Both the position numbers and the translations under genes were made by a program. Shown here in pieces: positions 29,563-33,530 of a DNA stretch of 37,232 nucleotides. Where the stretch lies: the NCBI GenBank assembly GCA_900320955.1, contig ONUN01000003.1, positions 35,323-72,554 on the forward strand. The letters run 5' to 3'. The stretch's first letter is position 1; each line of letters begins with the position of its first letter. The stretch is from an uncultured Methanobrevibacter sp. GTDB taxonomy: Archaea; Methanobacteriota; Methanobacteria; Methanobacteriales; Methanobacteriaceae. The notes under the pieces are model-generated. The model saw only the letters and a list, made by a program, of their open reading frames with translations. It had not been told where the DNA came from and did not search any database.

Positions 29563-29609
29563 TTTAAAGTATAGGTAAAAATTTTACCGTGCTATAAATT
29601 AATGGAGGA
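29563..29609 (+). promoter_or_regulatory. mtrA promoter with operator-like palindrome
   Basis: A TATA box (TTTAAAGTATA, 29563-29573) is directly followed by the perfect palindrome GGTAAAA-A-TTTTACC (29574-29588), in the space between TATA box and expected transcript start where archaeal repressors commonly bind. GGAGG at 29605-29609 is the ribosome site for ATG 29617. Confidence 0.65.
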
Positions 29610-29616
29610 TAATGTC

Positions 29617-30183
29617 ATGGCTGATAAAAAAGCTCCTGCAGATGGCTGGCCCGTAATTAGTGGGGACTATATTGTAGGAGATCCGGAAAGTCCAGTGGCA
29701 GTTACAACTCTTGCTTCTCACATTGAAGCTGAATTAAGCGGAGCTGCAATTGCAGGACCATGTAAGACAGAAAACTTGGGAATAGAAAAGGTGGTTGCAA
29801 ACATCATATCCAATCCGAATATCAGATTTTTGATTTTGGCAGGCGCTGAAGTGCAGGGCCACATTACAGGTCAGAGCTTCAAGGCATTGCACGAAAACGG
29901 TGCTGATGCCGACAAGAAGAAAATCATCGGAGCAACCGGAGCTATTCCTTTTGTGGAAAACGTACCTCTTGAAGGTGTTGAAAGATTCCAACAGCAATTG
30001 GAAATCGTTGATCTCATCGATACTGAAGATGTCGGTGCAATCCAATCCAAAATCAATGAATGCATTGAAAAGGACCCTGGAGCACTTGAGGCAGACCCTA
30101 TTGTAATGGAAGTTGATGAAGAAAACGAAAAGATGGTAATTGTTGACAAAAAGAAAAAAGATAATGCCTCTGAGGAAGCATAA
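29617..30183 (+). CDS. mtrA: Stand-alone soluble MtrA (tetrahydromethanopterin S-methyltransferase subunit A)
   Basis: The protein is 188 residues from ATG 29617, selected by GGAGG; ATG 29602 would overlap the ribosome site. MtrA carries the corrinoid of the Mtr complex that moves the methyl group from tetrahydromethanopterin to coenzyme M. The family features are strong: [45 protein letters not shown] with His82, the expected cobalt ligand, and [15 protein letters not shown]. Mtr-complex MtrA has a C-terminal membrane helix of about 20 residues; here the protein ends in a charged [11 protein letters not shown] tail with no helix, and there are no other mtr genes around. It is thus a soluble paralogue, perhaps accepting methyl groups from, or donating them to, another enzyme. 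A palindrome in the promoter suggests regulation. Confidence 0.92.
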
Positions 30184-30482
30184 ATCTTTTTTCACTCTCT
30201 TTTTTTTTAATTTTTTAACTGCACTTTTTTAAAAAAGATAAACTTTATATAGTAAATGCAATATATTACTTATTACATTGGTGAGAACTTGCATTTTTCT
30301 AAAAAATGTAATTCAAAACCAATAAATTTATATACTATAACAACTATAGTATGTATGCAAATATGTATTTTCTCAAAGAAAGTGCATAGGAAATATCATG
30401 TATATTTCTAAAAAAGATATCACCATTGTTCACATGTCTTATCTTTTAAGGTGAACATCAAAAAATAGTAGGAATTGATAAT
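30184..30482. promoter_or_regulatory. Terminator and complex upstream region of the 30.5-kb gene
   Basis: T-rich runs at 30188-30230 probably terminate mtrA. Two TATA-like boxes follow, at about 30242-30252 and 30324-30334. The second overlaps a perfect inverted repeat, ATACTATA / TATAGTAT (30332-30339 and 30345-30352). If transcription starts about 25 bases on, the leader would be about 125 bases and would contain another inverted repeat, TGTTCAC / GTGAACA (30427-30433 and 30451-30457). This suggests an operator and a structured leader or a small RNA, but nothing here matches an RNA class I know. Confidence 0.45.
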
Positions 30483-30845
30483 ATGGATAATCTAGCGAAA
30501 AATAATGAAAATGTAATCAACTGGTCTGAAAAAGTAAGAAACCTCGATGACAATATCCGCCGCGAAATTGGAATCGAAGGTGAAAACGAAGCTAAACACA
30601 TTCTAATCAAGGTGCAAACCAAGTCCTCAGAGTCAATAGAACCTGCATTCATCGTAGATGAAGACGACACATTCCTTGACCTCTTTGTATTGTCACCGCA
30701 CGGTTCTGGAATCACATCAACTGCCGTGTTGAAATCCAACATTCAAAGCGTTGGAGTAATCGGCGGCGTGTCTGCTGAGAAGATGGATTCAAACGAAATA
30801 CCTGAAGAAACAGGTCATGATGACATTGGAGGCCTTTACCAATAG
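30483..30845 (+). CDS. Hypothetical acidic protein
   Basis: The protein is 120 residues. AGGAATT precedes ATG 30483. It is acidic, with a helical N-terminus (NWSEKVRNLDDNIRREIGIE) and a beta-rich middle (HILIKVQTK, AFIVDEDDTFLDLFVLS, LKSNIQSVGVIGG). There are no cysteines, membrane segments or known motifs. Ordered secondary structure and good coding character show that it is a genuine gene. It is followed after 24 bases by another unknown gene. No family is recognised. Confidence 0.7.
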   Translation: MDNLAKNNENVINWSEKVRNLDDNIRREIGIEGENEAKHILIKVQTKSSESIEPAFIVDEDDTFLDLFVLSPHGSGITSTAVLKSNIQSVGVIGGVSAEKMDSNEIPEETGHDDIGGLYQ

Positions 30846-30869
30846 GCCTTTCCAATATTTAGGATGATT

Positions 30870-31262
30870 ATGAAGCAAAGATTCAATTCACGTAAAAGAC
30901 ACAGAAACAATGCATACTATGATAGGGAACTGTTGCTCAACAAAAAGATAAGGCAGTTTCAAAATGACTATTACAATCTTTCCAACCCTCCTCTTCCCGA
31001 GGAATATCGCAGAATGGATATGCTCAGAAGAGACATCAAATATCTCCTGAGATGCCAGGAATATAAGGTATGGAAAAAGTCATACAACCGCAAACATGCT
31101 TATTTCGACCAACTCACCCTATTCAAGTCAATGTATATGATGTGGAAAAGGAAAACCTTTTTCACCTACATTGAAGAATACCACAACGTACCTCACCACT
31201 TGGCCCTTTGGGCAAAAACAATCGGTGCAAACATGGTTCCTGGACGTGTGTTCGGAACCTAA
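30870..31262 (+). CDS. Hypothetical basic protein
   Basis: The protein is 130 residues from ATG 30870, for which AGGAT at 30861-30865 is well placed; ATG 30864 is the alternative. It is strongly basic and rich in Arg, Tyr and Asn, with an N-terminal MKQRFNSRKRHRNNAYYDRE and a run of aromatic and basic helices (YKVWKKSYNRKHAYFDQLTL). It ends in PGRVFGT. The charge pattern suggests nucleic-acid contact, but no domain is recognised. It lies 24 bases after the acidic unknown gene and 44 bases before the HsdS-like gene, so all four may be one transcript. Confidence 0.7.
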   Translation: MKQRFNSRKRHRNNAYYDRELLLNKKIRQFQNDYYNLSNPPLPEEYRRMDMLRRDIKYLLRCQEYKVWKKSYNRKHAYFDQLTLFKSMYMMWKRKTFFTYIEEYHNVPHHLALWAKTIGANMVPGRVFGT

Positions 31263-31306: not shown

Positions 31307-31873
31307 ATGAACAAGGTAAAACTCGCAGATATTGCAGAGGTAATATCTGGGCTGTCATATAGAAGATACAGGGATGAAAGCGAAGATTCCTATGATGTGA
31401 TTGTTCAAAGATCCATCAGAAAGGACGGAATCTTGAAGGATTTCGAAAAAATACGGCTTGTAAAGCCAAAATCAAGATATTTCACAAAACCTGGAGATAT
31501 CCTGATGAAAATGCCATATCCGTATGATGTTGTTTGTGTTAGCCAGGAAAATCTGGTTGTAAGTGACAGGATAGCCATCATCAGAGTCAACAAAAATTTC
31601 AACCCTTCATTTATAGCCCACCTGCTTTCAAATGCGCATGTCAAAAAGCAGTTGCATGAGCTTGGAAGTACAGAAAGAATACCGCACACATCACTGAAAG
31701 AAATTAAGGAATTGAAACTCATTATTCCTGATAGAAAAACACAAGATCAGTGCGCCGAACTTTTAGATCTTATCAACGAAAAGATTGTAGCCGACAAGGC
31801 ACTGGTTAAATATGACAGAAACCTCAAAGAGGGAATCCTAAACGAAATTTGGGAAGGTGGGTTAGATGTTTAA
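31307..31873 (+). CDS. HsdS-like protein, single target-recognition domain
   Basis: The protein is 188 residues. It resembles half of a type I specificity subunit: an N-terminal target-recognition fold (KVKLADIAEVISGLSYRRY, then SRYFTKPGDILMKMPYP, VVSDRIAIIRVN, HLLSNAHVKKQLHELGSTER, HTSLKEIKELKLIIPD) followed by one helical spacer (KTQDQCAELLDLINEKIVAD). Full HsdS proteins have two such units and about 400-450 residues; single-unit forms must dimerise. It normally gives a methyltransferase its DNA sequence specificity. Its stop overlaps the start of the HsdM-like gene by 8 bases. A ribosome site GAGG lies before ATG 31307. No restriction (HsdR) gene is present in the window. Confidence 0.85.
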   Translation: MNKVKLADIAEVISGLSYRRYRDESEDSYDVIVQRSIRKDGILKDFEKIRLVKPKSRYFTKPGDILMKMPYPYDVVCVSQENLVVSDRIAIIRVNKNFNPSFIAHLLSNAHVKKQLHELGSTERIPHTSLKEIKELKLIIPDRKTQDQCAELLDLINEKIVADKALVKYDRNLKEGILNEIWEGGLDV

Positions 31874-33530
31874 GTCAAAATCCCACAATAGGGTAATCCT
31901 TCACAAGCTGATGAGAAAAGGAAGGCGCAAAAACATTCCTTTGAACATGAGATATTATGTTCTGTATGCATTTTTATATAAATACATGTCAGACAAGCTT
32001 AAAAATCACCTGTTATATCATCTTAATGGCGATGAAGCTGATTTTAACATATTTTACCTGACAGATGAAGGAACCGACGATTTGAGGCAGTGGGCCTTGA
32101 ATGATATCGGGTACTTTTTCACCACCAAATCAGCATTCATTGACGAGTTCATCGCAAACAAATATGTTGATGATATTTTCAATCCGGACTTTTTCAAAAA
32201 CCTTAAAAACAGCATTGAATTCAGCCAAGACAATCCGTCAAAGAAGTATTTTGAAAAAATCATTGAAATTCTCGATGATAAGCTTAATTTCTCAAGCATT
32301 TACGGCGATGATGATTTGAATTCATTTATGAGCAACTATCTTTTTTCAATATCCAAATTCGACATTGAGGAAAGGGAGTTTACATTTGCCCAGGTCTATG
32401 ATGCAATAGCATATTCAAGGCAAATAAGGCTTTCATCAACTCCCGACTACATTTCACAGCTTATAAATTCAATCGTCAAATCCCAAAGAAGAGATGTGTC
32501 AAATGCTTATGATCCGTTTTTAAGGAATGCTTCAATACTCTTTGATTTGCATGATCAATTCACCATGTCAGACATTTACGCCAAGGAAAATAACGAATTG
32601 AATTACTTCTACTCTCTAATCAAAGCCTTTATCAATGAAATCAATTTTGACAATCTCCATATCTTGCAGGAAAATGCAATCAAATCCATGTCCTATGATT
32701 CACAGCTTTTTGATGTCATTGCATCAAAGGTTCCGGACAGCTTTGACGAGTTTTCAAAATCCACTCTCAAAAGCCAAAGCATTGAAGTTCCAACAGATAA
32801 CGATTTCAAGGAAAAACTGTTCAATAATCTGGGCATGGATAAATTGAGCGATGATGAGGAGGCTCTTAAAGCATTGAAGATACTTGAAAAGCGTTTCAAT
32901 GCAGTGGAAAAAAATGAAGTGGCATCATTTTCGGGAGAATATGAGTCCCTAAAAGACAGCGAGTTTCTGTTTTTAATCAATATGATTAATTCCCTTAAGG
33001 ACGATGGGCTTATGGTGATATCCCTTTCACAGAATTTCCTCTTTAAAAGTTCACTGACCCTTTTAAGAAAGTTCCTGACACATGAAAACCATTATATTGA
33101 TGGAATCATTTCCCTTCCAGAAGAGTTGGGAGGCGTAGTAAGGCCTGAAGTCGTAATTGTACTTCGAAAAAACAAAAATTCAGGAGATGTTGTGTTCATT
33201 GATCTTTCCAAGGAGTATGGGACAGAAATATCTCGAAACGCATTTCCTGGCCTTGTTAAGCGCAATCTTGTTTTGGACAAAAAAACCATCTCAAATATCC
33301 TTGACGCTTTGAACAATCGAAAAAGCGTCGATAAGTTCTCGCAGGTCGTTTCACTAAAACAAATTGAAGAAAACGATTTCAATCTGGCAGTTTCAAGATA
33401 TGTCGATACATATGATGGTGAATTCATTCGTCTGAAGGATTTGAAATCAGAAAAAGAGAAAATCGATGAAAAGATGGACAGCTTGAACGAAAGAATCGAT
33501 GCGCTTCTCGATGATTTGAATTTCAGATAG
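31866..33530 (+). CDS. HsdM-like N6-adenine methylase homologue with lost catalytic motifs
   Basis: The protein is 554 residues. It has the layout of a type I methyltransferase subunit: a helical N-terminal domain (YVLYAFLYKYMSDKLKNHLL), a Rossmann methylase core from about residue 185, and a C-terminal coiled coil (LKSEKEKIDEKMDSLNERID). The core keeps family landmarks such as STPDYISQLINSIV, FLFLINMINSLKDDGLMVIS and YIDGIISLPEELGG. The two functional motifs are gone, however. Motif I, normally YDPxxGSGxLL for SAM, reads YDPFLRNASIL, and motif IV, normally NPPF/Y, reads FDVIASKVPDS. The frame is intact and long, so it is not simple decay. It overlaps the HsdS-like gene and lacks HsdR. A DNA-binding, non-methylating complex is the inferred role. 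The 3' end overlaps the convergent antiporter gene by 8 bases. Confidence 0.82.
   Translation: MFKSKSHNRVILHKLMRKGRRKNIPLNMRYYVLYAFLYKYMSDKLKNHLLYHLNGDEADFNIFYLTDEGTDDLRQWALNDIGYFFTTKSAFIDEFIANKYVDDIFNPDFFKNLKNSIEFSQDNPSKKYFEKIIEILDDKLNFSSIYGDDDLNSFMSNYLFSISKFDIEEREFTFAQVYDAIAYSRQIRLSSTPDYISQLINSIVKSQRRDVSNAYDPFLRNASILFDLHDQFTMSDIYAKENNELNYFYSLIKAFINEINFDNLHILQENAIKSMSYDSQLFDVIASKVPDSFDEFSKSTLKSQSIEVPTDNDFKEKLFNNLGMDKLSDDEEALKALKILEKRFNAVEKNEVASFSGEYESLKDSEFLFLINMINSLKDDGLMVISLSQNFLFKSSLTLLRKFLTHENHYIDGIISLPEELGGVVRPEVVIVLRKNKNSGDVVFIDLSKEYGTEISRNAFPGLVKRNLVLDKKTISNILDALNNRKSVDKFSQVVSLKQIEENDFNLAVSRYVDTYDGEFIRLKDLKSEKEKIDEKMDSLNERIDALLDDLNFR

Follow-up and report, generated by a model that had tools for sequence, protein, structure and literature searches.

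A putatively non-catalytic HsdM and half-HsdS pair conserved in Methanobrevibacter is accompanied by a palindrome array in the promoter of a neighboring gene

The window (the whole stretch of 37,232 nucleotides that was analyzed, part of contig C196 of an uncultured Methanobrevibacter sp. whose assembly is 84% complete and consists of 230 contigs) carries two overlapping genes related to hsdS and hsdM of the Type I R-M systems. The first one, here called S (positions 31307 to 31873, forward strand), encodes a half-length HsdS-like subunit of 188 aa (pI 8.7) formed by one target-recognition domain (TRD) and a short conserved region; its match to the Pfam family Methylase_S (33 bits, cut-off 22) covers this single TRD. 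The second one, M (31866 to 33530, forward strand), encodes a pseudo-HsdM of 554 aa that is predicted to be catalytically dead. This protein shows the HsdM domain order, matches the Pfam family N6_Mtase with 94 bits (cut-off 20), and can be aligned to the HsdM of EcoR124I (7bst) and to 3lkd. It is approximately 40 aa longer than an ordinary HsdM of 514 aa, and has a weakly conserved stretch around residues 301-356. The initial annotation of this DNA had described a frame of 554 codons without a lesion, overlapping an intact single-TRD hsdS-like gene; both reading frames are indeed open and share 8 nt. No Rfam family matched the window.

Upstream of this pair, and on the same forward strand, lie U1 (30483 to 30845), which encodes an acidic protein of 120 aa (pI 4.4), and U2 (30864 to 31262), which encodes a basic helical protein of 132 aa (pI 10.1). 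The product of U1 is predicted to contain a helix and a small five-stranded β-barrel of the Sm-like type; the model has a pLDDT of around 90 in its core, and the resemblance to Sm/Gemin proteins is weak (best E 0.01). U1 is conserved throughout the genus, shows a near-invariant C-terminal LYQ, and has distant relatives in another genus (g9). It had been suggested that both upstream genes may belong to the same unit as S and M, and this stands for U1, which adjoins S-M in 40 of 40 genomes, although it also occurs without S-M in four genomes of this genus and in a second genus. It does not stand for U2, found in just 14 of the 40 units, whose absence from most loci ruled it out as a core part and leaves it as an optional passenger. 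Given that U1 is older than S-M, this candidate target or partner is more likely a regulated gene than a subunit. A conserved stand-alone mtrA-like gene (29602 to 30183), encoding methyltransferase subunit A, is located directly upstream of the unit; its product of 193 aa ends short of the family model, which has 238 positions.

The proposal that motifs I and IV of M have both been replaced is borne out by the alignment with the HsdM of EcoR124I, in which YDPAAGSGSLL corresponds to YDPFLRNASIL (32508 to 32540, forward strand, in the place of YDPxCGSGSLL) and SNPPYS to SKVPDS (32724 to 32741, forward strand, in the place of the SNPPF/Y region). The GxG loop of motif I is gone in 40 of 40 orthologues of M, and the Asn and the aromatic residue of motif IV are missing from the same 40; the first motif reads Y[DN]PFxx[DN][GA]S or similar, with one other variant (YIPYLEDAS), and the second reads S[KR][ILV]P or similar. 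Since this loss is common to the 40 orthologues while the ordinary HsdM proteins of the same order retain CGSG, GQEL and NPPF (22 of 22), it cannot be attributed to chance. The AlphaFold2 model of M adopts the HsdM fold (pLDDT 82, pTM 0.80), and its closest folds in the PDB are all Type I HsdM proteins, with E values down to 6e-22. Because these are the best matches of the model, we conclude that intact motifs have not been displaced to another part of the protein; the structure-based match likewise reveals no intact SAM-binding or NPPY-type motif elsewhere in M.

Full-length orthologues of M were identified in 40 of 67 genomes of the genus Methanobrevibacter, almost all of them metagenome-assembled, with 34-62% identity to M of the window and without a single internal stop. 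Outside the genus, the matches to M are ordinary HsdM proteins only. The unit occupies a constant chromosomal site across the 40 species, with the layout U1-[U2]-S-M; S and U1 accompany M in the same order in all 39 loci examined, and wherever the contig extends far enough the unit is flanked by mtrA and by genes for a phosphoribosyltransferase (PRT) and an oxidoreductase (GFO). The identified neighbors (mtrA, PAP2, KefB, PRT and GFO homologues) are of the housekeeping type, and no defence genes were found among them. In a marker-gene tree, all 37 testable genomes with S-M fall inside one clade of 41 genomes (SH-aLRT 98), therefore a single origin followed by several losses is indicated; four members of this clade are devoid of S-M, and three of these four keep U1. 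One genome scored as S-M-negative (G072) probably carries the unit, given that its contig L165 (G072:C153) stops within the palindrome-bearing promoter located downstream of mtrA. A scan of genome contigs with a single sequence found nothing, and the alignment-based scan of the same contigs recovered 31 Methanobrevibacter loci and one ordinary HsdM, from Sporosarcina. No member of the S-M family was found in the viral contigs searched, where the two matches are fragments of 24% identity. Membership in the MADS defence system was also considered and rejected: S does not match the MAD5 profile (1.7e-15) better than it matches Type I S subunits in general, and the neighbors listed above do not form the multi-gene MADS operon.

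The dN/dS values for the three closest species pairs are 0.12, 0.11 and 0.07 for M, and 0.10, 0.09 and 0.08 for S. Pairs of orthologues are on average 79% identical for U1, 67% for S (range 53-95%) and 48% for M; for comparison, ordinary HsdM proteins show 75% identity across genera of the order, and ordinary half-S proteins share only 20-33% identity with S of the window. Specificity appears frozen because S is more conserved than M, and in this respect the normal course of Type I evolution is, as judged from the sequences, reversed, with the specificity frozen and the methyltransferase drifting. The distances of S and M correlate with each other (r = 0.84) more than either does with the flanking genes. 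Within M, conservation is highest in the second half of the methyltransferase domain (63%) and at the C-terminus (55%), the latter being presumably where S binds, and the N-terminal and motif regions show 41%. The initial annotation had argued for selection on a non-catalytic complex, and the 40 intact orthologues, in none of which a frameshift was found, the dN/dS of around 0.1 for both genes in close pairs, the kept synteny and the single origin lend it good support. The pair is thus a predicted non-catalytic, domesticated relative of the Type I methyltransferases, and not a decaying R-M system.

As had been noticed from the window, no hsdR gene accompanies S-M, and no match to HSDR_N was found in the window's genome, which is 84% complete; HsdR was likewise not found in 16 of the 40 genomes with S-M. 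The remaining ones have HsdR, in several cases beside an ordinary HsdM at another locus. In the window's genome, no second HsdM match to the M query was obtained at E ≤ 1e-3. A relative of the pair is present in a genome outside the S-M clade (G045), at a different chromosomal place (L074:2585-4663). Its half-S protein is 46% identical to S of the window and is sister to the S family in the S tree, and the neighboring HsdM of 499 aa has an intact motif I (YDPFLGTG) and a motif IV that reads VPPF, with Asn replaced by Val. Judging from this protein, the catalytic Asn may have been lost before the SAM loop, although the M tree is long-branched at this point. In the same genome, the region L074:2585-5689 (G045:C93) contains, after the half-S gene and the VPPF hsdM, a gene for a protein of 145 aa and another one with a HEPN-like product; this locus could possibly represent another non-methylating S-M unit equipped with an effector.

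From the promoter alignment it was observed that the 21-bp palindrome TGYATTTTTYNAAAAAATRYA is repeated upstream of U1, together with two tandem conserved TATA boxes. In the window, operator-like site 1 (30220 to 30240, two mismatches) is placed just upstream of TATA box 1 (TTTATATA, 30244 to 30251, forward strand), site 2 (30290 to 30310, a perfect match) precedes TATA box 2 (TTTATATA, 30327 to 30334, forward strand), site 3 (30364 to 30384, four mismatches) lies downstream of TATA box 2 near the transcription start, and site 4 (30399 to 30419, two mismatches) represents a copy that is often present around 35 bp beyond site 3; no strand is assigned to these sites. All 39 promoters tested carry one to four palindromes, usually spaced by 70-75 bp, with a mean of 3.1 versus 0.19 for a Markov background when up to four mismatches are allowed; given that the palindrome was first found by inspecting these same promoters, fairer tests are provided by the scan of the whole genus and by the promoters of S-M-negative genomes. 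In the genus-wide scan (one mismatch) there are few copies per genome, and in the genomes with S-M nearly all of them are located at the U1 promoter. None was found in the six U1 promoters of S-M-negative genomes (G040, G045, G057, G077, G029 and G031), which may amount to only three or four independent cases. A simple alternative is that, in the genomes with U1 only, the loss of S-M may have included this promoter. In the viral contigs, the palindrome matches fall in unrelated contigs where no S-M member is present.

Variation in the operator columns is half that of the intervening spacer (0.22 versus 0.41). The partial correlation between operator and S distances is 0.45, and since the spacer correlates equally (0.50), a specific co-divergence of operator and S is not indicated. 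The half-sites of the palindrome, TGYA/TRYA, are separated by 13 bp, a distance larger than the N6-N7 spacers of the compared Type I sites; for S-M to be the binder, the contacted bases would have to lie closer to the center, and otherwise an unlinked transcription factor may bind there. In the genomes that bear U2, including that of the window, a TATA-like stretch is present directly upstream of S; for this reason it is uncertain in these genomes whether the array controls S-M itself, and its target there may be U1 instead. Most genomes without U2 show a strong stem-loop after the U1 stop codon, e.g. TTAGTTTTTGG-CTCACCA-CCAAAAACTAA (L046, L047, L049, L053, L058, L034 and others), adjoined by a conserved ATGCTCATTCAACCACCA stretch, both of them ahead of the S start codon. 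In other branches the same CTCACCA loop sits on another stem (GGGAAG/CTTCCC), and this points to a structured RNA preceding S.

The explanation that we favor, to which we give somewhat better than an even chance, is that the dead S-M complex binds the palindrome array and thereby regulates U1 locally, probably by repression. The half-HsdS would supply one TRD, and the pseudo-HsdM would have been retained as a clamp that enables S to grip the DNA; two copies of each would assemble into a symmetric M2(half-S)2 complex, which would occupy a palindromic site and leave it unmethylated. The likeliest target would be the array around the two TATA boxes of the same cluster, and the regulated genes would be U1 and, at least where U2 is absent, S-M itself. 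The position of the array around the TATA boxes suggests repression. It has been reported that a Type I enzyme containing the same half-S twice (EcoR124INT) reads the symmetric site GAAN7TTC (PMC2877798), and that neither S nor M alone binds DNA in Type I systems (PMC3874165); this requirement of S for M would account for the retention of a dead M. There is also a precedent for self-regulation, given that the Type II methyltransferase M.SsoII regulates the transcription of its own system (PMC6100179). Among the roles that had been proposed for the complex (chromosome organization, replication control, transcription and anti-phage sensing), the association of the array with the presence of S-M favors transcription, and it gives circumstantial support to the predicted specific DNA binding. 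As a more tentative conjecture, possible rather than probable, a dead Type I methyltransferase would have become a lineage-specific regulator of the Sm-like U1 through phased palindromes and could also serve as a tripwire: the arrival of a DNA-mimic anti-restriction protein from a phage or plasmid would release U1. This is conceivable because the parent complexes are targets of such proteins.

It is also possible, although we consider it rather unlikely, that the dead complex binds other DNA sites for another purpose, such as nucleoid architecture, replication or the sensing of invaders (for example, by titration with DNA-mimic anti-restriction proteins of phages or plasmids), and that the palindromes belong to an unlinked regulator. 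The evidence of selection and of catalytic loss is the same for this explanation, the spacing of the palindrome is unusual for a Type I enzyme, unlinked palindrome-binding factors often control archaeal promoters, and known anti-restriction proteins bind Type I methyltransferases (7bto and 7bst are among the fold matches of M). However, the palindrome is nearly unique to the U1 promoter and missing where S-M is missing, and because of this a binder encoded in the unit is favored; moreover, the housekeeping-type neighbors speak against a role in defence.

Much less probable is that M still methylates with altered motifs, or that it serves as an inactive partner to some active methyltransferase from another locus, as in METTL14/METTL3. 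The fold is preserved, and some genomes with S-M hold complete R-M systems with their own HsdM; against this, every orthologue lacks the GxG loop as well as the Asn and the aromatic residue, an archaeal Type I enzyme is severely impaired when its motif IV is mutated (PMC10050889), and neither a second HsdM match to the M query in the window's genome (E ≤ 1e-3) nor an HsdR in 16 of the 40 genomes was detected. That the pair is a functionless, decaying remnant of a Type I R-M system seems hardly credible. The absence of HsdR, the loss of the catalytic motifs and the four genomes of the clade that lost S-M would fit, but an old single origin, pairwise S identities of 53-95%, 40 frames free of internal stops and a dN/dS of around 0.1 led us to reject a decaying pseudogene.

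If the regulation of U1 by S-M is true, a whole Type I specificity complex can shed catalysis and persist as a DNA-binding machine, its evolution running opposite to the usual one, with a frozen specificity and a drifting methyltransferase. It would be a clean natural case of how defence enzymes turn into regulators, and gut methanogens would have a candidate regulatory switch whose predicted binding site is open to direct testing. No earlier description of a catalytically dead Type I M-S pair was found in the literature searched, which included few subscription papers.

METTL14-like pseudo-methyltransferases are catalytically dead and are kept as nucleic-acid-binding scaffolds; these are eukaryotic proteins that act on RNA with an active partner. 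S-M shares with them the idea of a dead methyltransferase scaffold, but has no evident active partner. With the Type I M2S complexes (EcoR124I, EcoKI, and the engineered half-S EcoR124INT) it shares the HsdM fold, the Methylase_S TRD and the adjacent overlapping genes, and the symmetric recognition predicted for S-M resembles that of EcoR124INT. In contrast to them, motifs I and IV of S-M are destroyed and there is no HsdR partner, the TRD is frozen instead of variable, and inheritance is vertical at one locus. The non-canonical Type I M1M2S enzyme PacII, the next-best structural match, has the same M and S architecture, but its two M subunits are both active and retain NPPF or NPPY (PMC9613975). 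Finally, S-M resembles the M.SsoII-type regulators in that a methyltransferase-derived protein is proposed to bind near its own promoter. M.SsoII, however, is an active cytosine-C5 methyltransferase of Type II and has its regulatory function in a separate N-terminal region, whereas in S-M catalysis appears to be lost and the S subunit would provide the recognition.
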